From IMG/VR virus record IMGVR_UViG_3300036785_000873, positions 1 to 41,297 of that record: a stretch of DNA of 41,297 nt. One strand, given 5' to 3'. A program made the position numbers and the translations under genes. The stretch is from a virus. The notes below the pieces were generated by a model. It did no database searches. It was not told where the DNA came from and was given only the letters and a program-made list of their open reading frames with translations. Shown here piece after piece: positions 3,104 through 28,912 of the stretch (positions are counted from its first letter, which is position 1; the number at the start of each line of letters is the position of its first letter).

Positions 3104-3472
3104 TTAGAACAGGTTGATTTCGAGACAGGCGATGCCCTCCCAGCGCACACGCGCCTGGCCGTCTCTGGTGTTCAATTCGAAGCCGCCTTTCACGGTCGCC
3201 CCCTGCAGCGTGTACTGCTTGTTGTTCGCGAGTTGCGCGATCACCGTGCTGTTTGTCTGCTGGATGAGATCCTCGAAGTTGAGCCCTGGCACCGTCGAGA
3301 GGTCGCCCTCGATGTACGGCACGCGGGGCAGTTCTTGGTAGCCGTGGACTCCGTCTTGTCCTGCGATCATTGTTCTTTCGACAGGACTCGGAGAGACGGT
3401 AAAATTTCCACGGAGTTGGTATTGGTTCCCATCGACCGACAAGAACGCAATTCCGGCAAAGCGAATTGCCAT
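3104..3472 (-). CDS. Tail tube protein (Mu gpM-like)
   Basis: 122 aa, the usual size for a Mu-type tube monomer. The sequence (MAIRFAGIAFLSVDGNQYQL at the N-terminus, then 'VERTMIAGQDGVHGYQELPRVPYIEGDLS') fits the contractile-phage tail tube family, whose hexamer rings form the inner conduit for DNA. ATG 3472 has a strong GAGGAG site. It is separated from the sheath gene upstream by a hairpin plus pyrimidine run, so tube expression may be set apart from sheath expression. Confidence 0.9.
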   Translation of the reverse strand: MAIRFAGIAFLSVDGNQYQLRGNFTVSPSPVERTMIAGQDGVHGYQELPRVPYIEGDLSTVPGLNFEDLIQQTNSTVIAQLANNKQYTLQGATVKGGFELNTRDGQARVRWEGIACLEINLF

Positions 3473-3667: not shown

Positions 3668-6000
3668 TTAGAGCGCTTGCAGCGGCGGCAGAACGCCGGT
3701 CACGCCGATCGTCGCCGGATTCGGTCCGAGGATCGCCGTATCCAAACCTCTGTCGTACTGGAGTCTGAACTGCGCAAGCACAGCGAAGATTCGCAACTGA
3801 TTTATCAAGTCTGGCCCGTAGAGCACATTGATTCTGTTCGGGTCGTTAGGGTCTCGCTCGACAAGAAGATTCGCCTTGAACGCCTGAAGATTCTCAACGA
3901 GACCGTCCCACATATCCTGGACGTACTCAGCGATGAGTTCGCCCTTGATGATGCCGGGCGTGACGATCGCCTGGCCCGGACCGAACCGCGTCCCGTCGTC
4001 CGCAAGCTTGACGCGCGGATACTTCGACGTGATCGCATAACGCTGGTTTCTGATCAGCCGCGCGAGCGTCGCGAGAGTCGTAACGAGTTCATACGCATCG
4101 TCTCTGAACCCATAGAGATTCAGTTGGTAAGTTGTCGTCTCGCGCGAGATCATCGGCTGGTTGTCCGAGCCAGCCTTTTGCGTCGCGACCCCGTTCGTCG
4201 CCAGCGAATTGATTTCGATCGTGTCAAACCGGTCCTGCAGCGGCGCAAGCTTGACCGTGTTGAGACTCAGAGTCTGAAGAGGTCGGGCTGGATCGTTGGT
4301 CAAAGCTCTCTGAGCTTTGGCCACATATGCCGCGACCCAATCGAACACCGCCGACGGCGATGTCATCTCGACGCCCATCACCGACGTGACGCCGCTGTTG
4401 CGCGTATTCCCAAACGTCAACAGGTTCGGATAAGTATCTCTTCGCGCCGAGAAGAGGTGACCGTACAACTGCCGGCGCCAACCCCAACGCCCAACGTCTT
4501 CGAAGCCATATTCTAGCTCCCAAGCGTTGAGGGTCGTCGAGTCTGTGTACGGCAGCGCGACATACTCGAACTGCTTCTCGCCGAGGTTCGCGATCGCAGT
4601 GTCCATGATCGGAACGCCGACCCCGCCGTGGAGGAAGTTGGCCACACCGGAAGTCTGGAATGTCAATGCGACGCTAGCCAACGTCGTCACCGCACTCGTG
4701 ACATAGACGCCGTTGCCGCCCGGCGTGCCGGAGGTCTGGCTCACGATTGTGGTGTTCGCCGGAACACCGACGCCGGTCACCGCGGCTCCGGTGCTGATCA
4801 TGCCCGTAGCTCCAGCGATCGTGAGACTGGTGGTCCCACTGCTCGTCCCGGTGCCAGTCCCCGACGTCGGTCCTGGCAGCGTTATCCCAAGCCCAATCGG
4901 CGTCACCTCTCCGCCGATCGTGCCGTAGTAGTTCATGTCGACGCGGATGTCGTTGCCGTTAACGCCCTTCCAGGTGCAGGTCAGAATGCAACTGACATTC
5001 TGCGCCGTCGCGGTGACGGGGAGGACCTCCCCGAGACTGTTGATCTGCTCCGCAATCTCGGCGGCAACCTCGTCGGTCGTATCGGACGCGGCGATGTTGA
5101 CCGGGACGTGCGTGCCAGCAATGTAGAGGTGGATCGTTCCCGCCTCCGTCTGCTGCTGCGTGATCGTGATCGTGCCGGTCGCCGCCTGCGCGTTCGGTGG
5201 CTCGGGGATTCCAAGTCCCCACGTCTCGTTAGCGAAGTTGTTCGCGAAAAAAGTTCTATACATTCTCGCGACTTCAGAACCGACACCGAAGTGAGCGTCG
5301 GCCTGAGATTGCGTCCCGATCGCGATCGGAACGTTCGGCAGCGCATCGCCGGGATTGGCGGAAATCGCGGTCGGCACCCACGTCAGATTGAACGTCGCAC
5401 CGGAGCCGAAGCCCGACGTCGAGAACTGCGGCACCGGGTTCGCCGGTGGCGCGACAGCCGCAGAGATGCCGCCAGGACCCGTGACAGACACAGTGGCAAC
5501 CGCGCCAGCCGTGATAGTCAAGACCTGAAGATGAACCCCGTGGTCGAGCGAGATCGTGTCGCCGACAACATAGCCGGTCCCGCCAGCCGCGATGGCCGCC
5601 ACGCTGACATGCAGCGTCGGCGCGATCATCGTGCCGACGATCAGACTCGGTTGGTAGATGACCGGAAGACCGGCCATCGACGGGTCGACTTCACCTGATC
5701 TTCGCAGCGAGTTCGCTACACTCACCACCGCCCTTGCGGGCTGCTGCATGTTCCCATGCAGAGGAGGCCATATCATCATTCCTCTTGCGAGGAAGCCCGG
5801 CGCTTCGGAACCGCTTGGCTCCTACTCCCTTGCGGGATGGTCGTTGCACCTTCTCTCTTTCGAGAGCTTGGCTCAGGATTGGCCGGTCTGGCGTTTCCCT
5901 GAGTTCACCGGGTTTTAATTGGGCTTACTGATTCGCGTCAAAAAACCCAATACAGCGGAATCTTTAGGTCCGCCGGAATATTGGAAAACGAAATCGGCAT
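3668..6000 (-). CDS. Contractile tail sheath protein (Mu gpL-like), interrupted by a group I intron
   Basis: The coding sequence is exon 1, 6000-5945 (56 nt), joined to exon 2, 5693-3668 (2026 nt). The product is 693 aa. ATG 6000 follows GGAGG with a 6-base gap. Exon 1 encodes MPISFSNIPADLKIPLYW plus GT; splicing gives GTT (Val19) and then EVDPSMAGLPVIYQPSLIVG, the standard start of Mu-type sheath proteins. Unspliced RNA stops after MPISFSNIPADLKIPLYWVF. The C-terminal half ('ETTTYQLNLYGFRDDAYELVTTLATLARLIRNQRYAITSKYPRVKL') is typical sheath. Compared with Mu (about 495 aa) it carries two extra beta-rich, Gly/Thr/Val-rich insertions at about 47-125 and 295-370, probably surface domains. The sheath contracts around the tube during infection. 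The ATG at 5779, in frame with exon 2, lies inside the intron and should not be used as the start. Confidence 0.93.
5694..5944 (-). ncRNA. Self-splicing group I intron (IA-like, no ORF) in the sheath gene
   Basis: 251 nt. P1: exon end ATTGGGT (5951-5945) pairs with guide GCCCAAT (5924-5918), leaving the required U.G wobble at the 5' splice site. P3: CCCGG (5912-5908) with CCGGG (5800-5796). P4: CTCAGG (5903-5898) with CCTGAG (5877-5872). P6a: CTCTC-GAAA-GAGAG. R strand GTGCAACGACCA (5849-5838), with AACGACNA as in IA introns. P7.1 TCCC-GCAA-GGGA and P7.2 GGAGCC-AAGC-GGTTCC. P8 TTCCTC-GCAA-GAGGAA (5794-5779). P7 3' strand ATATGGCC. P9 CTGCATG-GGAA-CATGCAG and P9.1 GCCC-GCAA-GGGC. The terminal G is 5694. 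Two extra hairpins (P7.1/P7.2) are typical of phage IA introns. P7 contains one A.C mismatch next to the G-binding pair. No homing endonuclease is encoded, so the intron is non-mobile on its own or mobilised in trans. Confidence 0.95.
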
Positions 6001-6040
6001 GGTATGCCTCCTTCTCTAGTGGGGATTATTCGCGGTTAGC

Positions 6041-6089
6041 ATTCGTCATCCATCGCCACCCCACTATGAAGGCTCTTGCGATGACGAAT
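6041..6089. repeat. 10-bp inverted repeat in the sheath 5' leader
   Basis: ATTCGTCATC (6041-6050) and GATGACGAAT (6080-6089) are exact inverted copies with a 29-bp spacer that has further pairing (CATCGC / GCGATG). They sit 41-89 bases upstream of the sheath ATG in a 156-bp gap that holds no gene. They could form an mRNA leader structure or bind a protein. Confidence 0.5.
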
Positions 6090-6156
6090 TCGAAAAAGAG
6101 GATTTTGCCGCGCGCCAAGAACGCGGCGGAGATGGCGGTCGACTACTTCGAGCGGT

Positions 6157-6519
6157 TTACTTTTCCGCCTTCGCCTCTGCAGGCCTCGAACCGCGCGCTT
6201 GCGTCGACGGCTTCACGACCTGCCCCGTCGCGCTGTCGATCTGCGCGACGATTTTGATCGAGCCGTCTTGCAATCGCCGCTTGGTAAAGCGATCAAGCGG
6301 CCATTCGACTGAGCCCTTCGCGCGGAATGCCATGCCATTCGGATGCTGCAGAACGTGGCGCAACTCCTCGGTCGCCGGCTCGACGCGGACGCGCACGCGC
6401 GCTTTCTGCTTCTCCGCAGCGAGCGCGGCGAGATGCGCGGGATGCGCCTTCGGTCCAGGTCTGCGATTGACCTGCCGATTAACCTTGTCGCGCTGCTGGA
6501 TCATTGGATTCATGTACAT
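6157..6519 (-). CDS. DUF2635-like small tail protein (Mu gp38 position)
   Basis: 120 aa. After a basic N-terminus, the central part 'VRVEPATEELRHVLQHPNGMAFRAKGSVEWPLDRFTKRRLQDGSIK' fits the DUF2635 pattern (Mu gp38), short proteins coded just before the sheath in Mu-like phages. Function is unknown. ATG 6519 has AGGAGA eight bases upstream. Position directly before the sheath supports the assignment. Confidence 0.7.
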   Translation of the reverse strand: MYMNPMIQQRDKVNRQVNRRPGPKAHPAHLAALAAEKQKARVRVRVEPATEELRHVLQHPNGMAFRAKGSVEWPLDRFTKRRLQDGSIKIVAQIDSATGQVVKPSTQARGSRPAEAKAEK

Positions 6520-6555
6520 TTCAGTTCTCCTCTTTTGGGTGTTACATTGGCTAGA

Positions 6556-6640
6556 CGTGGCACGGCGCGGCCCGGCGCGGCTTGGCTTGCTTGGGCACGG
6601 CGTGGCATGGCTTGGTAAGGCGAGGCGAGGGAAGGGACGG
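6556..6640. repeat. 17-unit degenerate pentanucleotide tract (CNNGG)n
   Basis: Exactly 85 bp read as 17 consecutive 5-mers of the form CNNGG (cgtgg cacgg cgcgg cccgg and so on); the first two and last two positions are conserved, with drift at a few units, while positions 2-3 vary freely. It fills most of the 144-bp gap between the tail-terminator gene (ends 6664) and the DUF2635 gene (starts 6519). It has no open frame of interest. On the transcript it reads CCNNG and could fold or affect translation coupling. Confidence 0.8.
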
Positions 6641-6663
6641 GCCTACAACCCGCCTCTTCATTC

Positions 6664-7602
6664 TTAGGTCAAGACGAGGGTTTGAGGCGCGGTCACACCA
6701 CCACTATTATTTTGAATGGTGATGCTATAACTCCCAGCCAGAAAAGTGCCGGGGATTGTCGCTTCAAGCTGCGTCGGCGAAATAAATGTTGTCGCTTGAG
6801 ACAAGCCGTCAGCACAAATTTTGCACGTAGAGTCGAAGTCAGTGCCGGTCGCTGTAATGACCGTCGCTGTTCCGTGAACGGCAGTCGTCGGCGAGATCGA
6901 CGCGAGTGTCAGATCTGGCGGCAGCGGCGTCGGTACCGAGTCCGGCGTGAACTCGTAGACGATCTTAATCTGCTCGACTGCTGCTTGCGCCGCGTCGTCG
7001 CCGCCGAATGGAAACGCCGTCGTAACCGAGATGCGCTCCAAGTCGGGAAAGACGTTCGGGAAAAAACACGTCCGAAGCTGCATCGTTAGGTAGAACAGCC
7101 GTTCCCCGAACGGCGTTTCGTTCTTAGCTATGCCAGCCAATCCCCAGACATCTGGCATCCGAACACGCAAGCGCGGATAACTTTCGATGGTAACGCCATC
7201 AGGCAGCGTCGTATTCAATCGGTTCGTCAAAGAGTTGTCGTGAAGGAGTTGATTAACTGCGAACCAGTAAGCCTGATCGAGCGTCTTGAGCATCGCTGTC
7301 GAATCGTTGTTCTTGACAACGATCTGAAAACCAACCGTGAAATTATGACTAAAGCGTATGTCACCAGCGTTCCCGTCCCCATCCGGACCCCCATCATCCT
7401 GAGTAAGGAAAATGCCGAGAAATGGAATTTGAAGCCCGGCCTCGATCGGCAACGCGCTAGTGATGCGCTTGACCCAGCCCTGAAAATACGACGCTGCCGC
7501 TAAGCGGTCGTAGATTCCATTGAGGATAATCCACGGATAGCTCTGAACGTCACTGACGCCGCCGGTACCGGTCCAAAGGATATCGCGCGGGGCTACGTTC
7601 AT
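6664..7602 (-). CDS. Tail terminator/completion-like protein with C-terminal IPT/TIG Ig-like domain
   Basis: 312 aa. Residues 1-220 look like a tail terminator or neck protein: it is placed after the stopper and before the tail genes, and contains 'RVRMPDVWGLAGIAKNETPFGERLFYLTMQLRTCFFP'. Residues about 232-312 (LASISPTTAVHGTATVITATG... SYSITIQNNSGGVTAPQTLVLT) are a clear IPT/TIG Ig-like fold, commonly added to phage virion proteins as a surface or adhesion module. ATG 7602 overlaps the upstream stop (ATGA). The terminator role is inferred from gene order; the IPT domain is seen directly. Confidence 0.65.
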   Translation of the reverse strand: MNVAPRDILWTGTGGVSDVQSYPWIILNGIYDRLAAASYFQGWVKRITSALPIEAGLQIPFLGIFLTQDDGGPDGDGNAGDIRFSHNFTVGFQIVVKNNDSTAMLKTLDQAYWFAVNQLLHDNSLTNRLNTTLPDGVTIESYPRLRVRMPDVWGLAGIAKNETPFGERLFYLTMQLRTCFFPNVFPDLERISVTTAFPFGGDDAAQAAVEQIKIVYEFTPDSVPTPLPPDLTLASISPTTAVHGTATVITATGTDFDSTCKICADGLSQATTFISPTQLEATIPGTFLAGSYSITIQNNSGGVTAPQTLVLT

Positions 7603-7973
7603 GGCGCCGCCGGCTCGAACTTGCGGATCACAAGCGTCGTCTCGCCGCCGCCGTTCCTATGCGTGTCGGTGACTTCGAAATCTCCCTCCGCCGGGATGTT
7701 TCCATCTTGCGGGATGTTGATCAGATCGCCCTGCTGCGGCAGCACGAGGCCAGCGTCAAAGAATTCGTTATCCCGGATGTCGAGGATCGTCTCCTGATCA
7801 GATACGATGGCCATTCCCATATCGGTCTGGACCTCGACATCGCGCGTGCCGTAGATCCCGCGCGCCGCGTATGCCCCGCTACCTGGCGCCGAATTGATCG
7901 GCGTTATCGTGACATCACGCGAGAATTGGTCTTGGCACTGCAGATAAAGCACCGATGAGAAATCGATCGCCAT
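7599..7973 (-). CDS. Head-tail joining/stopper-like protein
   Basis: 124 aa from ATG 7973 (MAIDFSSVLYLQCQDQF). Longer upstream readings are low-complexity and overlap the preceding gene, so 7973 is preferred. The beta-rich sequence with 'ARGIYGTRDVEVQTDMGMAIVSDQETILDIRDNEF' fits head-closure/stopper proteins that sit under the connector. It lies four bases after the upstream gene and overlaps the next by ATGA. The function call rests on size, position and general character. Confidence 0.6.
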   Translation of the reverse strand: MAIDFSSVLYLQCQDQFSRDVTITPINSAPGSGAYAARGIYGTRDVEVQTDMGMAIVSDQETILDIRDNEFFDAGLVLPQQGDLINIPQDGNIPAEGDFEVTDTHRNGGGETTLVIRKFEPAAP

Positions 7974-7977
7974 GGCT

Positions 7978-8406
7978 TTACCACTTGATTTTTTCGCCGA
8001 ACAGATTCGCCATCTCGGCATTGAAGAGATCGAGCATCTCTTCGCGCAGAATCGGCCGCGTCGAGGTGTGGGTGTAAAACCGCGGGTGCGTTCTAACGCG
8101 GCGACGACGTGTTCTTGTGCGCTTCGCATAGGCTGAGGTAGCGCGGGCGCGGCGATAGCGGACGAGCCGCTCGTGCGCCTGCGCCGAATGCTCCATCTCG
8201 TATAACGAGTGCGGCCTGATCTTCGTGACCGCCCAGCCCTTCGCGCGGTAGCGCATCGTGAACGGCCGATGACGATGCAACTCCTCGGTCTGCCAGTCTG
8301 ACATTCCCATTCCGATATCGACGCGCTTGAAATGATCGATTTTGCCGATCATGTCGCCGATACGCTTCGACAGCGGGTAGACGTCGAGGTGGATATCGAT
8401 GGCCAT
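7978..8406 (-). CDS. Neck/tail-completion protein of HK97 gp10-like character
   Basis: 142 aa; ATG 8406 abuts the stop of the connector gene. The middle has 'MSDWQTEELHRHRPFTMRYRAKGWAVTKIRPHSLYEMEHS', followed by a strongly basic stretch (RYRRARATSAYAKRTRTRRRRVRTHPR). Position between connector and stopper suggests a neck or tail-completion protein. No catalytic motif is visible. An alternative is a DNA-contacting structural protein, given the basic patch. Confidence 0.5.
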   Translation of the reverse strand: MAIDIHLDVYPLSKRIGDMIGKIDHFKRVDIGMGMSDWQTEELHRHRPFTMRYRAKGWAVTKIRPHSLYEMEHSAQAHERLVRYRRARATSAYAKRTRTRRRRVRTHPRFYTHTSTRPILREEMLDLFNAEMANLFGEKIKW

Positions 8407-9057
8407 TTAGACCTCGATGTGCATGTACTTCTTGAGCAGCGCGTCGACCGTCGGATCAATACCAGCGCCCTTCCCCATTGAGGCTGCCAACCGAATCAAG
8501 ACGGCGTTCGGATCGAAAAAGGCGATGCGCGATTCCTTGTGACTGATCTGGCGAACGCCTGCGACCTGCGCCTGCTGTAGTCGCATTCTCGCGTACATGA
8601 TCAAGAGCGCGCACGCCTGCTTGAGCGGCATCGGTGCTTCGGTGGGAAGATCATAGCCGCCGGTATAGGTCACAACCGCAGGCGGGTCCCATGGCGTCGT
8701 AATGGGATCGCCGGGCGAGATATGTGAGAGCTTTCCAGTCCTCTCTTCGAGCGCCCAGTCGCAGGGAATACCAGCCGACGTGACAGTCTGGATGTCTATT
8801 GTCTTGACAGGCCAGTGCGACAGAAAGAGTCGTCCGTTGTAAACCTCGCGCCAGGTTTCGGTCAGCGTCTCTTTCGCGAAGACCCGATTGCACAACGTGG
8901 CAATCGTCTCTGAGAAAATCGTGATCTGCATCGTCAATTGTGCATCGTGCGACGTATCGGTCAGCGATAAGCCGAGGAGCAACTTCGCCTCGTCGAGCGT
9001 GAGCAAATCTGTGCTCGTCGCTTCCTCGATGATTTCCATATTGAAATGATCAGCCAT
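8407..9057 (-). CDS. Head-tail connector protein (HK97 gp6-like)
   Basis: 216 aa from ATG 9057, which overlaps the upstream stop by one base (TGATG). An upstream extension would be an Arg-rich out-of-frame copy of the collagen gene and is not credible. The sequence 'LLTLDEAKLLLGLSLTDTSHDAQLTMQITIFSETIATLCNRVF' and the later 'PAVVTYTGGYDLPTEAPMPLKQACALLIMYARM' are characteristic of gp6-like connectors that form a ring beneath the portal. Confidence 0.8.
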   Translation of the reverse strand: MADHFNMEIIEEATSTDLLTLDEAKLLLGLSLTDTSHDAQLTMQITIFSETIATLCNRVFAKETLTETWREVYNGRLFLSHWPVKTIDIQTVTSAGIPCDWALEERTGKLSHISPGDPITTPWDPPAVVTYTGGYDLPTEAPMPLKQACALLIMYARMRLQQAQVAGVRQISHKESRIAFFDPNAVLIRLAASMGKGAGIDPTVDALLKKYMHIEV

Positions 9058-10268
9058 CAGCGTGTCTCGATCTGGTCGTGGAATTCCTTGAAGAGGTCGC
9101 CAAGCGCAAGCTCGGGCCCAAGCGTCCCGTCGGCCATCACCGGCGTTGCAGCAAACCGTTTGCGATCGATTTTCCAGGACGCAATTTTGGCGACGTCCTC
9201 GCCGCGCTCGCCGCGCGCCCCGCGCTCGCCCCGCTCCCCCTTCTCGCCGGCGATACCGCGCTTGCCGCCGCCAGCAAGCATCTGCCAACCATCACCAGGG
9301 CACGGGCCAGGACTATCGCGCAGTGCGACGAATGACGAAGACTCGCGCATGACGACATCGAGGACTTCGTACATGGCGTCGATTTTGTAGGTGCCGCAGA
9401 TCCGTATGCTGCGGGCGTCGCGGCCAGCGATAGCCAAAGCAATCCAATCTCGGCCCGACCCAGGTGCCTTGCCGGTATCCTTCACTGCCTGCCAGAGGGC
9501 GCCGTCATGGGTGACGACGTCGGCAGCGTAATGGACCTCGTCGGGGCGCCAGGCGCGCGCGATCGGGAGCTTGCCAGGCGGGCCTGCTTCTCCGCGATCG
9601 CCCTTGTCACCCTTGACACTGGCGCCCGGAGGCCCTTGGTCGCCCTGCGGGCCGCTTTGACCATCTCGGCCAACCGGGCCCGGCGGTCCAACAATAGTTT
9701 CGCCCGGAAGACCTTTCTCGCCCCTCTCGCCAGCCGGGCCGGGCGGCCCTTGAACGGATTCGCCCGGTTCCCCCTTGGGACCGACAATCGATTCACCGGC
9801 ATCGCCTTTTTCTCCCTTTGGCCCGACAACGCTTTCGCCTGGTAGGCCGCGCTCGCCGGGTGCCCCGTCATCGCCCTTGATGCTTAGGCCGGGGTTTCCC
9901 TGTTCGCCGCGCTCGCCGCGTTCGCCGGGCGGACCTTGCTCGCCGCGCTCACCGGCATCGCCGCGCTCACCGCGCTCGCCGGGTTCGCCTTTGAGACCTG
10001 GCGGCCCCTGTTCGCCTAGCGGTCCGCGCTCGCCCGCAGCGCCCCGCTCGCCGGGAGGTCCCGTAACGGTCTCTCCGGGCGGCCCAGGAGGCCCCACAAT
10101 CGATTCCCCGGCGGGCCCCGGTGGACCTGCTGGCCCCGCCTCGCCATCGCGTCCCGGAGGGCCCTGCGAGCCCGGCTCGCCGAGCAAGCTACGGCCCTGC
10201 AGTCCAACCGGACCGCGCAGATTGCCGACCCTTTTCCAGCGGATAACCGGTTCCATTCCGGATTCCAT
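9057..10268 (-). CDS. Collagen-like virion protein with chitin/carbohydrate-binding-type modules
   Basis: 403 aa. Residues about 20-235 are almost uninterrupted Gly-X-Y triplets ([19 protein letters not shown] style), expected to form a collagen triple helix. Then come two short modules: '[28 protein letters not shown]' (carbohydrate-binding CBM5/12-like W...Y..D.V..G..W.A pattern) and a related '[30 protein letters not shown]'. A second short collagen stretch follows, then a C-terminal tail. It is probably a trimeric fibre or head decoration. The start is ATG 10268 or 10256; neither has a strong ribosome site. The gene is divergent from the plus-strand island, its 5' end adjoining the first island promoter. 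Confidence 0.75.
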
Positions 10269-16917: not shown

Positions 16918-16992
16918 TGGTTGCGGGGGTCGGATTCGAACCGACGACCTTCGGCTTATGAGACCAACGAGCTACCGCTGCTCCACCCCACA
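16918..16992 (-). tRNA. tRNA with CAU anticodon (Met or Ile2)
   Basis: The cloverleaf reads TGTGGGG (acceptor 5', 16992-16986), D arm GAGC-AGCGGTA-GCTC, anticodon arm TTGGT-CTCATAA-GCCGA, T arm GTCGG-TTCGAAT-CCGAC, CCCCGCA, discriminator A, and an encoded CCA (16920-16918). The 7-bp acceptor stem is complete with one U.G pair and begins U1-A72. Initiator features (C1xA72, three GC pairs in the anticodon stem) are absent, so it is elongator Met or a lysidine-modified Ile2. It sits within the head operon between the capsid and portal blocks. Confidence 0.92.
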
Positions 16993-17100: not shown

Positions 17101-18540
17101 TCAACTCCAGGTGACGTTCTGCGTCCAGGCCACCGTGCCTGCTCTTCGCTGAATCCAATTGAGAGGGAGGACCATACGAAGGGCGATGGAGTCGGTCTGG
17201 AACAGCGAACGCTGCGGAGACGCAACAGTGCCGGGAGATCCGGACACCAGGTCAAGTGGCGCCGTATCCTCCATATGCAAAGTGGCTTGATCACTTAACT
17301 CGAATCGCGGCGCCTCTCCGCCAACTACAACGAAATCGGCCGCGTCGACCAATATCATTGTCTTAGCAGGCACCGTGGCAGAGTCAATGATCGGAACGCT
17401 GGCGAGCGTGCCGGCTTTGATCTCGTCCTTGAACGGGAAGATGCCCGTATTCGGCGCACTCACGAGCCCAGCACCGAGGACGTCGGTCGGGTTCATGAGA
17501 AATGCCGGATTGCGAACGTTCCCGTAAGTTGACGTCGTCAAGGCACCAATCAGCGCTTTGATATCGCCAACGAGCGCCGTCAAGCCGCCGCCCGCCGTGG
17601 CCGTGGTTGCGGCAACGCCGTTGAGCAAGCCTGCCGGACGAATGACCGTCGCCGGATTCGTGTCGATGAGTACGCTGTCGACCGCGACCGACGTATCGGT
17701 CTGGATCGCTTCACGGAGAATTCCTTCGATCGCTGGAATCGAATGATCCCCCATCTCCCTTGTCCACGTGGAAATCACTGCCATTTTCTTTGGCGTGACG
17801 GTCTGCGAGGTGAACGCACCTTGCCTGACAGGAATCGCCTGACCCTCGCCGACGAACGAGCCTGCGAGAGATGGCGTCCTGCTACGCGTAGGGATGATGA
17901 TGCGTCCGGTCTGACCGAACGACAACGTCAAGCCCTTCGCCGCAAGCCGCGTCATGATCGCGTTCGGCATCAGCAACGGCATGAGTGCCGCATACGTCGT
18001 CTGGACGAGTTCCTGCGCCCATCCCGCGACGTTGGTCATCGCGGGAGCAGATGCGGCACGCAGGACAAAGTCAGTCATGACCTTCGTCTGCTCGTCGTCG
18101 CCGTAGATTTTGACGCGCGTCTCGTTCGGGTCCTTACCCCACATCTTCGACACGTACGCGACGGTGCCGCCGCGCACGATGAGATCGAGGAGATCGAGAT
18201 CCTTCTTGCCGATCGTCGACACGCTCGGGCTGCCGTTGGTGTGCGCAGCGCCGCTGAAGTTGCCGCCGCCGCCGTTGGCGGTGATAACCGCGAGCGACTT
18301 CGACCTGCCGCCGTTGGCGCCACTGTTGCCGTCGACGCCCGCAGCCAGACTCTTTTCGGACTCGATCAGCCCAGCCCGCAACTTCTCAAGTCTCGTGATG
18401 TCAGCGTTGAACGTCTGGGTCAACTCCAGATCGGTATCGCTGACGTTCGTGTCGTCCATTTTCTCTAGATGCGCCGTCAGGGCATCGCGCTTAGCGACAA
18501 TCTGCCCCTGGACGTCCGTAATTCTTTGAGCGAGACTCAT
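17101..18540 (-). CDS. Major capsid protein (HK97 fold), produced from an internal start
   Basis: In-frame ATG 18540 (MSLAQRITDVQGQIVAKRDA) is preceded by GGAGGGGGACC, as strong a ribosome site as any in the window, so a free 479-aa capsid protein is expected besides the fusion. Residues 1-70 are a coiled-coil delta/scaffold-like region. The remainder is an HK97 capsid: 'AASAPAMTNVAGWAQEL', 'GSFVGEGQAIPVRQGAFTSQTVTPKKMAVISTWTREM', ending 'SLFQTDSIALRMVLPLNWIQRRAGTVAWTQNV'. Confidence 0.85.
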   Translation of the reverse strand: MSLAQRITDVQGQIVAKRDALTAHLEKMDDTNVSDTDLELTQTFNADITRLEKLRAGLIESEKSLAAGVDGNSGANGGRSKSLAVITANGGGGNFSGAAHTNGSPSVSTIGKKDLDLLDLIVRGGTVAYVSKMWGKDPNETRVKIYGDDEQTKVMTDFVLRAASAPAMTNVAGWAQELVQTTYAALMPLLMPNAIMTRLAAKGLTLSFGQTGRIIIPTRSRTPSLAGSFVGEGQAIPVRQGAFTSQTVTPKKMAVISTWTREMGDHSIPAIEGILREAIQTDTSVAVDSVLIDTNPATVIRPAGLLNGVAATTATAGGGLTALVGDIKALIGALTTSTYGNVRNPAFLMNPTDVLGAGLVSAPNTGIFPFKDEIKAGTLASVPIIDSATVPAKTMILVDAADFVVVGGEAPRFELSDQATLHMEDTAPLDLVSGSPGTVASPQRSLFQTDSIALRMVLPLNWIQRRAGTVAWTQNVTWS

Positions 18541-19521
18541 GGTCCCCCTCCTTCCATTGCCGTTAGTAGTTCTGGCCGTCCGGCCGTTAGACCCGCTGCG
18601 CTTGACGTGATCTCGATTGCCAGGCCTGGCGAAGATCACATCGATCGTTGCGGGGGAAATTTTCAGATTCTTGGCTACTGCCAACGCATTTGCATTTGCT
18701 GGCACCGAACAAAGAGAACACTCGACCAATTCCTGCTTGAGATAGCGGAACGGTCCAAAGTACGGATCAGCGCGATCATCCATCGGCTCCTTTTTCTTCG
18801 CCTGGAAACCAACCGAGACCGCACGCAAGATACCGTGCTCGACAAGCTTGCGGATCTCATCGATCCGTGGTGACGTTCCCGCGGGCGCGAGGTCGAGCTT
18901 CCCTATCAGTTTTCCGTCTTTGTTCGACAGGTTCGACCACCGGCCAATCGGAAAATCTGCGCGGTGGTTGAATAATGCGATCGGATTCTTGTTAAAGTTA
19001 TCAAGGCTCCAGCCATCCGCCGTGATGATTTCTCCCATCCGGTCGACGCTCTCGTCTGACAAGACGAAATTCGTTCCTTCGATGACGGGCTCGGAGTGCG
19101 AGCGGAAAATTGTCACGCCAGGCTTGAGCCGCGCGCCCTGATAGTCGCTCCACTTGCCCAGGCAAATTTCTTGGGCTGCGTCCTCATCGACTTCGCCGTT
19201 GCCGTCGTCGCCGTCGCCGTTACCGTTGCCGGTCAGTTCATCCATACATCTGTCGAGAAAATCATCCTTGCTTTCGTCGTCATCGGGATCTGGCGCGTCC
19301 GCAGCATCGAGCGCGCGACGGCCAGCAGTCCAGCGCGCAATCATTTCTTCGATCGTCTTCGCTGGCGCCTTACCGCCGTGCTCTTCCCGCCAATAGCTAA
19401 AGCAAATCGCGACCGCTTGCTCTTGCGTTCGATCGGACGGAGCATCGGGCCCATACGTCTCATGCATGCAGCGAGCCATGAAATCATCCTGGCTCTCGCC
19501 CTTGTGCGGTTTCATCGGCAT
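17101..19521 (-). CDS. Prohead protease (U35) fused in frame to the major capsid protein
   Basis: 806 aa from ATG 19521 (GGAGG eight bases upstream). Residues 9-48 and 83-125 are two copies of a small 'S+DDF..RCM.E......A..IC...W' module. Residues about 137-285 are a Caudovirales prohead protease with His186 (FNHRADFPIG) and Ser236 (ILRAVSVGF) as the likely catalytic pair. Residues 286-327 are a Gly/Asn/Arg linker. Residues 328-806 are the HK97 capsid protein. No stop separates them. The protease trims the scaffold/delta regions in the procapsid and could cleave itself free. The fused arrangement is uncommon. Confidence 0.85.
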   Translation of the reverse strand: MPMKPHKGESQDDFMARCMHETYGPDAPSDRTQEQAVAICFSYWREEHGGKAPAKTIEEMIARWTAGRRALDAADAPDPDDDESKDDFLDRCMDELTGNGNGDGDDGNGEVDEDAAQEICLGKWSDYQGARLKPGVTIFRSHSEPVIEGTNFVLSDESVDRMGEIITADGWSLDNFNKNPIALFNHRADFPIGRWSNLSNKDGKLIGKLDLAPAGTSPRIDEIRKLVEHGILRAVSVGFQAKKKEPMDDRADPYFGPFRYLKQELVECSLCSVPANANALAVAKNLKISPATIDVIFARPGNRDHVKRSGSNGRTARTTNGNGRRGTMSLAQRITDVQGQIVAKRDALTAHLEKMDDTNVSDTDLELTQTFNADITRLEKLRAGLIESEKSLAAGVDGNSGANGGRSKSLAVITANGGGGNFSGAAHTNGSPSVSTIGKKDLDLLDLIVRGGTVAYVSKMWGKDPNETRVKIYGDDEQTKVMTDFVLRAASAPAMTNVAGWAQELVQTTYAALMPLLMPNAIMTRLAAKGLTLSFGQTGRIIIPTRSRTPSLAGSFVGEGQAIPVRQGAFTSQTVTPKKMAVISTWTREMGDHSIPAIEGILREAIQTDTSVAVDSVLIDTNPATVIRPAGLLNGVAATTATAGGGLTALVGDIKALIGALTTSTYGNVRNPAFLMNPTDVLGAGLVSAPNTGIFPFKDEIKAGTLASVPIIDSATVPAKTMILVDAADFVVVGGEAPRFELSDQATLHMEDTAPLDLVSGSPGTVASPQRSLFQTDSIALRMVLPLNWIQRRAGTVAWTQNVTWS

Positions 19522-19580
19522 GACAGATCCTCCGTCCGCGCTGCTGCGCAGATTTTCACGCCCCGAAAATTCCTGATTAG

Positions 19581-19856
19581 TTATTCTTTGATCGTCAGCG
19601 TGTCGTAGACCGACGGCGTCTCGCCGCGCTGCGGCGACTTGTAAGGCGGCGACTTGGCTGGCTTCTTGAGCGCCAACTCGTTCCCGCTCACTTCGAACAA
19701 CGACCAGTCCTGCAATTCCTTCGGCAACCCAGATTCCATTTCGGCATCCCACTGCGGCGGAGCCGGCCCCCAGGCTGCCTCGATATAATTCGCGCGCGTA
19801 ATCGGCACGCCGTTCTCGCGCATCAGCGCCAACACCGGATCTTCGTCGTCAGCCAC
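19581..19856 (-). CDS. Small conserved-type protein (91 aa)
   Basis: Proposed start GTG 19856, within the stop region of the upstream gene (GTGGCTGA); an ATG at 19895 would add 13 Arg-rich residues. The protein reads ADDEDPVLALMRENGVPITRANYIEAAWG, then 'LPKELQDWSLFEV' and a Lys/Pro-rich tail. I know this type only as a short phage protein near capsid genes; function unknown. Confidence 0.6.
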   Translation of the reverse strand: MADDEDPVLALMRENGVPITRANYIEAAWGPAPPQWDAEMESGLPKELQDWSLFEVSGNELALKKPAKSPPYKSPQRGETPSVYDTLTIKE

Positions 19857-24155: not shown

Positions 24156-25244
24156 TTACTTCCAGGTCGGCGTCAACCAAGCGAAGCCGCGCGGGTCACG
24201 CAGCACCCACGAGACCGGCCACCGCGTCTTGATCGCAATGCTATTGGTTTGAAACATCGACTTCTCGGTGCCCATGGTTCCGGCCGGACCAGGCGCCGTA
24301 TCCATCACCAGCGTCCCCGCATTGGCGGTCTCGACCTCGGCTGTCGGTGCTGCCGCGGCGACCAGCGCGCCAGGCGCGATCGCAGCGACGTCGTTGCCCA
24401 TCGCCGGCGTACCGAAAATGATGGGCAATTCCGGTTTGTTGAGGCGCAAACCAATGCCGATCGCTCGTCCGGGCGAAGCGACAATGATGTATGGCCCACT
24501 CCCGCCGACCGTCGCGATCGCGTTGATCAGCGTCGCGATGTCCTCGAAGACTTGCTCGAATCCGTCGGTCGCTGCCGATGGCGTCAATGCAGCGATGCCG
24601 TTCTTGAGGCCGGCCGAGCGCGTCGCGTCCTCCGCATTGGCATCGAAGAACGCGACGTCCATTGCCGCGCCCATGGCCTTGATCAGCGCGTCCTCGACCG
24701 CAGCTTCCGCATTCGACGACTCGATTAGCTCGCGTGTCAACGCCGCGATCGCTGCGAGCTTATGCGGATTCAGCAGCGCCGCCGTCGAGGCAAGCTGACG
24801 CACCGGGATCGGCGCGCCTTCGGCGACGAACGAAGCGTTGCCCGCGCCGGCGACGAAACCGGGGGCCGCAATCTGGCCCGCGCCATCCCAATCGAGGACC
24901 AGCCCGCGTTGGATGATTTGAATCGCCGCCGAGGCCGGAGCGAGCGCTTCGAGCGCGGCGGTGACTCTTTGCGGCGCCAATTCTTTCGCCCAACCGGGGA
25001 CCGTGGTCATGGCTGGCGCGGATGCAGCGCGCTCGATCAGATCGAGGACCTCGTGGTCACCCGGCCAGATCTCGGTCGCGACCTGCGCCGGCGTCGTCCT
25101 GCGGATCGAAGCAATGGCGGAGGCAACGATGAAACGCCGGAAACTATTCCCAGGAGGCGTCGGTTCGCTGCGCCGGAAAACTGGCGCATCGGTCGGGAAA
25201 GGACGGCCGGCGCTCGTTAGATTTCTGATGTCAGCCATGACCAT
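24156..25244 (-). CDS. Second HK97-fold capsid protein (paralogue)
   Basis: 362 aa from ATG 25244 (GAGGA seven bases upstream); an ATG at 25238 is also possible. It aligns with the capsid at 17101: 'AASAPAMTTVPGWAKEL' vs 'AASAPAMTNVAGWAQEL', 'VAEGAPIPVRQ' vs 'VGEGQAIPVRQ', 'IAALTRELIE' vs 'ISTWTREMGD', and 'SMFQTNSIAIKTRWPVSWVLRDPRGFAWLTPTW' vs the other C-terminus. It lacks a protease and a long delta region. It could be a minor capsid protein, an alternative capsid or a decoration/penton variant. The fold call is firm, the role is not. Confidence 0.8.
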   Translation of the reverse strand: MVMADIRNLTSAGRPFPTDAPVFRRSEPTPPGNSFRRFIVASAIASIRRTTPAQVATEIWPGDHEVLDLIERAASAPAMTTVPGWAKELAPQRVTAALEALAPASAAIQIIQRGLVLDWDGAGQIAAPGFVAGAGNASFVAEGAPIPVRQLASTAALLNPHKLAAIAALTRELIESSNAEAAVEDALIKAMGAAMDVAFFDANAEDATRSAGLKNGIAALTPSAATDGFEQVFEDIATLINAIATVGGSGPYIIVASPGRAIGIGLRLNKPELPIIFGTPAMGNDVAAIAPGALVAAAAPTAEVETANAGTLVMDTAPGPAGTMGTEKSMFQTNSIAIKTRWPVSWVLRDPRGFAWLTPTWK

Positions 25245-25246
25245 GA

Positions 25247-25813
25247 TCAGTTCCTCATGTAGGCAAGCCAGGTCCCGGCAACATGACAGATCGGCCATCC
25301 CTCACCGGCGAGACGATCAAGGACCTCGGTGACTTCAACCCCTTCGTTGCCAAAATCGTGCCAGACGCAGATGCCGCCCGGTCGCAGGAGTTCGCGCGCG
25401 ATGCGGCTATCGTGCTCCGCCCCGATCGCGCTGTGGTCGCCATCGATGAAGACCGCATCGACGGGCTCGAGGTCGTAAGCTTCAAGCGTCGTCGACTCGC
25501 CCAGGAGGAGCCTGAATCTTGGATCACTGGCTGCATATCTCCCAGGTACGACGGGGACCTCGTCCTGCTGACACGCCAGACGCGTCGGCCGTCCCCACGG
25601 AATATCGATGCCGATGTAAAGCTCGATCGACGGCACCGCATTCAGGATCGCGCGCGCCGTCTTGCCCTGATTGACCCCGAACTCAAGGACAACGCGCGGC
25701 TTAACCGACGCGATCAGTTCGACGACAATCGCGCTCTCGTTCGCGCCAAGATAATCGTTGCCGAGCGTCCCGGTATTGCTGGGTCCGCGAAGTACAAAGG
25801 TTTCTTCTTTCAT
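25247..25813 (-). CDS. Class I SAM-dependent methyltransferase
   Basis: 188 aa from ATG 25813, overlapping the upstream stop (ATGA). Motif I 'VVLEFGVNQGKTARAIL' (SAM-binding), 'YIGIDIPWG' (acidic motif II) and 'DAVFIDGDHSAIGAEHDSRIARELLRPGGICVWHDF' place it in the Methyltransf_24-type small-molecule/sugar methyltransferases. With the glycosyltransferase two genes on, it may finish a surface glycan. Substrate unknown. Confidence 0.8.
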   Translation of the reverse strand: MKEETFVLRGPSNTGTLGNDYLGANESAIVVELIASVKPRVVLEFGVNQGKTARAILNAVPSIELYIGIDIPWGRPTRLACQQDEVPVVPGRYAASDPRFRLLLGESTTLEAYDLEPVDAVFIDGDHSAIGAEHDSRIARELLRPGGICVWHDFGNEGVEVTEVLDRLAGEGWPICHVAGTWLAYMRN

Positions 25814-28528: not shown

Positions 28529-28912
28529 TCAGTGCGAAGCGGAAGTGAGGCATTGTTTGGTGCCCCTGCCCCTCCCCGCCGGCTGTCGCGTCAGCGTTGC
28601 TGGTTCTTCGATTGGCCATCCATCGGCGCCGAACTGGACGCGTTCATGACCATGGTGCTCAAGGTACTGCTTGTCGCTGTTGTGGCACTGGAAGCAGAGG
28701 CTCTGCAGCGGGCCGTACAGGAAGGCCCACCAGTCACCCTTATGCGGCGTGATGTGATCAGCGACGGTAGCTGCTACAGCCAAGCCACGTTTGGCACACA
28801 TACGACAAACAGGTTCGTCCATCAGGTGACGTCTGCGTCTACGCCTCCAGCGTTCGAGCTTATACCAATCGAGTGGGTTGTCGTTCCACGGTGCTATGCG
28901 GCGTGGTGGCAT
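28529..28912 (-). CDS. HNH endonuclease
   Basis: 127 aa. 'EPVCRMCAKRG' and 'LCFQCHNSDKQ' supply a four-Cys zinc site, and between them 'TVADHITPHKGDWW' gives the DH of the HNH fold, with the final His/Asn in CHNSDK. Small HNH proteins beside terminase assist packaging cleavage in HK97-like phages. The N-terminus has a long basic run (WRRRRRRH). ATG 28912. Confidence 0.85.
   Translation of the reverse strand: MPPRRIAPWNDNPLDWYKLERWRRRRRRHLMDEPVCRMCAKRGLAVAATVADHITPHKGDWWAFLYGPLQSLCFQCHNSDKQYLEHHGHERVQFGADGWPIEEPATLTRQPAGRGRGTKQCLTSASH

Follow-up and report, generated by a model that had tools for sequence, protein, structure and literature searches.

The window, the whole 41,297-nt stretch of viral DNA analysed here and catalogued as an IMG/VR virus record, carries on its minus strand a group I intron (5944..5694) that splits the Val19 codon of a tail sheath gene, as an initial annotation had proposed. 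We assign a probability of roughly 0.85 to the reading that this is a group IA mini-intron without an endonuclease gene of its own, which probably spread by collaborative homing with a free-standing GIY-YIG/NUMOD3 endonuclease. Feature coordinates and insertion points are collected in Table 1.

A group I intron in codon 19 of the tail sheath gene

The covariance-model search suggested in the initial annotation returned Rfam family RF00028 at 5975-5744 on the minus strand, covering the full model (1-253) with 79.8 bits (E 7.5e-19) at a gathering score of 50 bits. The intron strand folds with a minimum free energy of -109.6 kcal/mol (z -4.7), and none of 200 shuffled sequences reached so low a value. 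Covariation was counted for the window helices, 61 pairs in all, across an alignment of 11 sheath introns. Paired cells made up 96.8%, compared with 84.3% in shuffles and at most 41% when the helices were slid along the alignment. Both sides had changed in 29 of the 61 pairs (16.1 in shuffles, at most 7 in slid helices), with at least one such pair in every one of the 12 helices. All helices named in the initial annotation (P3, P4, P6a, P7, P7.1, P7.2, P8, and P9) were recovered, together with P5, P6, P9.1, and P9.2. The assignment to type IA held as well, P7.1 and P7.2 being found between P7 and P3 with 100% of cells paired and both-side changes in three of four and two of six pairs, respectively.

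Table 1. Features of the window sheath locus and intron insertion points in related sheath genes
Feature	Position	Strand	Basis or carriers
Tail sheath exon 1, 56 nt (codons 1-18 and GT of Val19); good RBS GGAGG upstream	5945..6000	-	
Tail sheath exon 2	3668..5693	-	phrog_165, Pfam, frame
Group I (IA-type) intron without ORF, 251 nt; omega-G at 5694	5694..5944	-	Rfam match, minimum free energy, covariation
Internal guide GCCCAAU (P1), 7 bp with exon end 5951..5945 (AUUGGGU)	5918..5924	-	Pairing, U.G at splice site
P3: 5912-5906 with 5802-5796	5796..5912	-	
P4: 5903-5898 with 5877-5872; P5: 5892-5890 with 5884-5882	5872..5903	-	
P6: 5871-5870 with 5850-5849; P6a: 5866-5862 with 5857-5853	5849..5871	-	
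P7, guanosine-binding helix: 5842-5838 with 5770-5766; one A.C mismatch	5766..5842	-	
P7.1: 5837-5834 with 5829-5826; P7.2: 5822-5817 with 5812-5807; subgroup IA marks	5807..5837	-	
P8: 5794-5789 with 5784-5779	5779..5794	-	
P9: 5761-5755 with 5750-5744; P9.1: 5741-5738 with 5733-5730; P9.2: 5725-5720 with 5712-5707	5707..5761	-	
Possible relic of a GIY-YIG gene; start codon would be 6081	6006..6097	+	About 87% identity to L002 endonuclease start region
Insertion point	Codon 19, phase 2		Window, L004, L040, L076, L081, L084, L106
Insertion point	Codon 16, phase 2; 9 nt upstream of the codon 19 point		L011, L024, L027, L029, L088, L092, L093; probably L139, L195
Insertion point	About codons 21-22		L098, L129, L183
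Insertion point	About codon 14		L110, L174
Insertion point	About codons 10-13		L192
Insertions deep in the sheath gene	Near residue 424; near residue 548		L139; L147

The claimed internal guide was likewise borne out, its 7-bp pairing being equalled by only 3% of shuffled intron 5' parts. In L004 the exon end reads ACUGGGU, with the other Tyr codon, and the guide reads GCCCAGU, a compensatory intron-exon change relative to the window; in most other carriers, the guides that are clear pair over only 4-6 bp. A U precedes the intron and a G is its last base in 13 of 13 introns, and in the window U5945 at the 3'-end of exon 1 stands opposite G5924 of the guide. Inspection of the window intron showed no evident P10 pairing. 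P7 is GACCA/UGGCC in the window, whereas most relatives have GACUA/UAGUC, and the resulting A.C mismatch may weaken catalysis. We did not retain recurrence of the GACCA/UGGCC pattern as support: a scan for it hit six further contigs, which by our estimate is about the number expected by chance, and five of them had no group I match there under relaxed settings, the sixth (L162) being checked at the gathering threshold only. L162, a contig fetched by chance, holds 28 tRNA gene matches within 5 kb (4107-9180).

The identity of the host gene as tail sheath rests on exon 2, which matches phrog_165 (E 5.3e-130) and contains the Pfam domains PF04984 and PF17482. The start chosen for it by the ORF finder, the ATG at 5779, is located inside the intron; automatic annotation would give the products of intron-bearing sheath genes a false N-terminus. 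Unspliced reading from the start codon at 6000 yields MPISFSNIPADLKIPLYWVF followed by a stop, 20 codons in all. By contrast, joining 6000..5945 to 5693..3668 yields MPISFSNIPADLKIPLYWVEVDPSMAGLPV with a frame open to the gene end. The intron boundaries and omega-G given in the initial annotation are correct. The expected family N-terminus is found in L002, the nearest intronless relative (88% identity in the best segment), whose first 30 residues equal the predicted spliced ones letter for letter. The same N-terminal motif, with few substitutions, occurs in the majority of about 70 further intronless relatives.

Judged from these features of the sequence, the window intron probably splices in cells. 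After transcription the guide would dock on the exon end, P7 would bind GTP, and a cut after U5945 followed by joining of U5945 to U5693 would restore the sheath mRNA. Without splicing, translation would end at the early stop, and because of this stop tail assembly is predicted to depend on splicing of the sheath transcript.

Recurrent insertion at the start of the sheath gene

Introns occupy at least five points within the first ~22 sheath codons, in different lineages and often with empty siblings; points other than those in codons 16 and 19 were placed from tblastn gaps and reading frames rather than base by base. A profile HMM of the sheath introns sufficed to locate introns in fetched loci. 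Among 80 loci fetched by sheath sequence alone, eight carry an intron, and a scan of viral contigs with the 42-nt P4-P6 core found 64 stretches, about 15 of them in sheath genes of the window's family, the two sets differing in ascertainment. The start of the sheath gene is an intron hot spot which has been hit repeatedly.

Several comparisons bear on the mobility of the intron. On a 98-tip tree of sheath C-terminal regions, the 17 intron carriers require 14 changes of state. In many pairs the introns are more alike than the host exons, as in the window and L004 (86.6% versus 73.3% identity) and in L024 and L029 (88.5% versus 62.1%). The sheath genes of L004 and L006 are 89-98% identical per 100-nt window, yet the intron is present in L004 and absent in L006.

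Some loci hold more than one intron. On the minus strand of L139, a 2.5-kb stretch holds three group I introns (2687-2898, 3951-4166, and 4951-5164), two of them in a single sheath gene and the third just downstream. L110 (4056-4265) and L027 (7401-7615) likewise have an additional intron downstream of their sheath genes. In L097 an intron with the same core (3190-3393) lies just upstream of an ORF matching phrog_23, a different sheath family (E 3.7e-7); introns may also target the sheath genes of a second phage lineage.

A free-standing GIY-YIG endonuclease beside the sheath gene of relatives

The close pair L004 and L006 differs in a second feature: just upstream of the L004 sheath gene lies an insert coding for a GIY-YIG protein (phrog_314 homing endonuclease, E 2.8e-7); L004 thus has both intron and endonuclease gene and L006 neither. 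Similar ORFs in either orientation occupy the same gap in L002, L011, L081, L098, and L150 (Bradyrhizobium erythrophlei); all match phrog_314, and those of L081 and L150 also exceed the Pfam cut-off for NUMOD3. When viral contigs were searched with the endonuclease family only, 33 loci were found; in 28 of them the endonuclease gene adjoins the 5' end of a sheath gene belonging to the window's family, which makes the sheath gene the usual address of this endonuclease. Nine of the 29 endonuclease-found loci with a sheath gene in reach carry a sheath intron. In L084, L092, and L060 the endonuclease lies just 3' of the sheath gene. In the sheath-seeded set, introns occur in 3 of 7 loci with the endonuclease and in 5 of 73 without it (Fisher p 0.02, shared ancestry ignored). 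The free-standing gene stands beside an intron-bearing sheath gene in L004, L011, L081, L098, and L106; most intron carriers have no intact copy of it in the vicinity, and sheath genes that do have the endonuclease beside them are mostly intronless.

According to the initial annotation, no homing endonuclease is present. This is true of the intron, whose 251 nt contain no homing endonuclease ORF, but incomplete for the locus, given the free-standing genes of relatives and a possible relic in the window. We found no intact endonuclease gene near the window sheath gene. However, within the 156-nt gap separating the sheath gene from a small upstream gene (6519..6157, also on the minus strand), 92 nt resemble the start region of the L002 endonuclease, first codons included (ATGACGAATTCGAAAA, plus strand from 6081). 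The segment was found in none of the other fetched relatives. It looks like the remnant of an endonuclease gene deleted in the window, or it could be a shared flank into which the L002 gene was inserted later. An HNH gene of the window (28529-28912) was considered as a possible mobiliser and rejected, since it is 22 kb distant, close to the terminase gene, and we found nothing that links it to the intron.

On the reading we favour, the intron would home into intronless sheath genes aided by the GIY-YIG/NUMOD3 endonuclease that relatives encode immediately 5' of their sheath genes. The enzyme would cleave the junction, both elements would be transferred together, and in the window phage the endonuclease gene was apparently lost. 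Spread without this partner is a possibility that we take seriously, albeit below even odds: the scarcity of intact GIY-YIG genes near carriers speaks for it, as do an HNH ORF inside the codon 16 intron of L088 and the related introns 9 nt apart, which have correspondingly different guides (GGCG for the codon 16 point, GCCC for codon 19 in L084 and L106). The almost exclusive placement of the GIY-YIG family next to the sheath gene and the double difference between L004 and L006 argue for the GIY-YIG partner. L027 encodes a further HNH endonuclease (6708-7253, minus strand; phrog_374, E 8e-61) just downstream of its intron-bearing sheath gene and next to its second intron.

A tentative extension of GIY-YIG-driven homing, possible in our view but short of probable, is that the first ~22 sheath codons are the recognition site of this one family, and that introns at the five or more points shield the gene and ride along; one endonuclease would then underlie many convergent introns. 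Endonuclease-bearing intronless sheath genes would escape by altered codons, and YYVEV, VYIEV, and VELDSS were indeed seen in a biased sample. These mutated sites are suggestive, but the comparison is confounded because the endonuclease-free set was seeded partly with the peptide EVDPSMAG. In L017, which bears the endonuclease and no intron, a copy of the junction motif, TACTGGGTTGAAGTTGA (YWVEV), is found between the endonuclease gene and the downstream sheath start at 525. Repair at the cut site may have left this copy as a scar.

It is improbable that the window intron is a decayed, non-splicing insertion, with sheath protein made from the ATG at 5779 in frame through the intron 3' part and exon 1 a leftover. 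ORF 3668..5779 is open and P7 has its mismatch, but the introns of L040, L076, and L081 have stops in the 5779 frame, which is why we consider an internal start unlikely. Moreover, exon 1 retains its RBS and encodes the same N-terminus as intronless L002, the rest of the core is intact, and the P7 mismatch is common to the window and L076 and has therefore persisted. A chimeric assembly, or a random insertion that only looks like an intron, is conceivable for a single metagenomic contig but is rejected because independent contigs (L004, L040, L076, L081, L084, and L106) carry introns at the same codon position, and the covariance support (RF00028, helix covariation) also stands against it.

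A collection of 84,980 species genomes of bacteria and archaea yielded sheath relatives in Bradyrhizobium only (8 loci), and the three of these scanned for introns (L149-L151) had none at the gathering threshold. From this result we infer such a host for the window, which would belong to a soil phage related to Bradyrhizobium prophages. Just before the sheath RBS, 6017-6066 holds an inverted repeat (TAGTGGGG ... CCCCACTA) that is kept in L002 and is a possible regulatory hairpin. The intergenic stretch 6545-6640, rich in GCC/AAGCC, resembles a degenerate tandem repeat. Elsewhere in the window, two ORFs match the phrog_617 major head protein (17101-19752 and 24156-25298), the first of them (883 aa) with head-protease matches too, and a tRNA gene with CAU at the anticodon position (16921-16992, minus strand; Rfam, 62.6 bits) lies between the portal and head genes.

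Comparison with known phage introns and collaborative homing

Parts of the window intron align with 158 phage records at 66-88% identity. RF00028 introns of proteobacterial phages (e.g., Xanthomonas CP1 and Valrath, Salmonella Vi06) share its P3-P9 core; among the matches listed, the annotated host gene is DNA polymerase, terminase, thymidylate synthase, or unknown, and in no case tail sheath. The Bastillevirinae introns are IA-type phage introns like that of the window. They lie only in nucleotide/DNA-metabolism genes and terminase, with an endonuclease in 32 of 45 introns (PMC11878797), and the same text raises the question of why phage introns are almost confined to genes of DNA metabolism. 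In the sheath family, one short stretch of an essential late virion gene has received introns repeatedly, in different lineages, and intronless siblings are available for comparison.

Introns in phage virion genes are already known. Mycobacteriophages BAKA and Optimus have one in a minor tail gene and LittleE in a capsid gene; the BAKA intron is 265 bp long, has no endonuclease gene, and was shown by RT-PCR to splice (PMC3706429). In Twort, orf142, the tail tube gene, contains an intron (PMC11878797). Like the window intron, these are thought to be group I and lie in late structural genes, but genes and hosts are others, and the sections available describe no cluster of neighbouring insertion points. 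Searches of the open-access literature, which leaves out most subscription papers, turned up neither a sheath intron nor a sheath hot spot; this absence is weak evidence.

Collaborative homing is equally established (PMC6083498, PMC3984707, PMC10448857), including in T3/T7-like phages and at terminase loci (PMC10448857). In cyanophage S-PM2 it involves free-standing F-CphI and the psbA intron (PMC6083498, describing Zeng, Bonocora and Shub 2009). The arrangement is that of the window's relatives, i.e., a group I intron without endonuclease gene and a free-standing endonuclease beside the target. However, F-CphI is of Endo VII type, whereas the window's kin encode GIY-YIG/NUMOD3 proteins with predicted cleavage activity; the target is psbA rather than the sheath gene, and here several insertion points go with one endonuclease family. 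The sheath loci form a natural series in which collaborative homing, shielding by introns, and switching between insertion points 9 nt apart can be tested.
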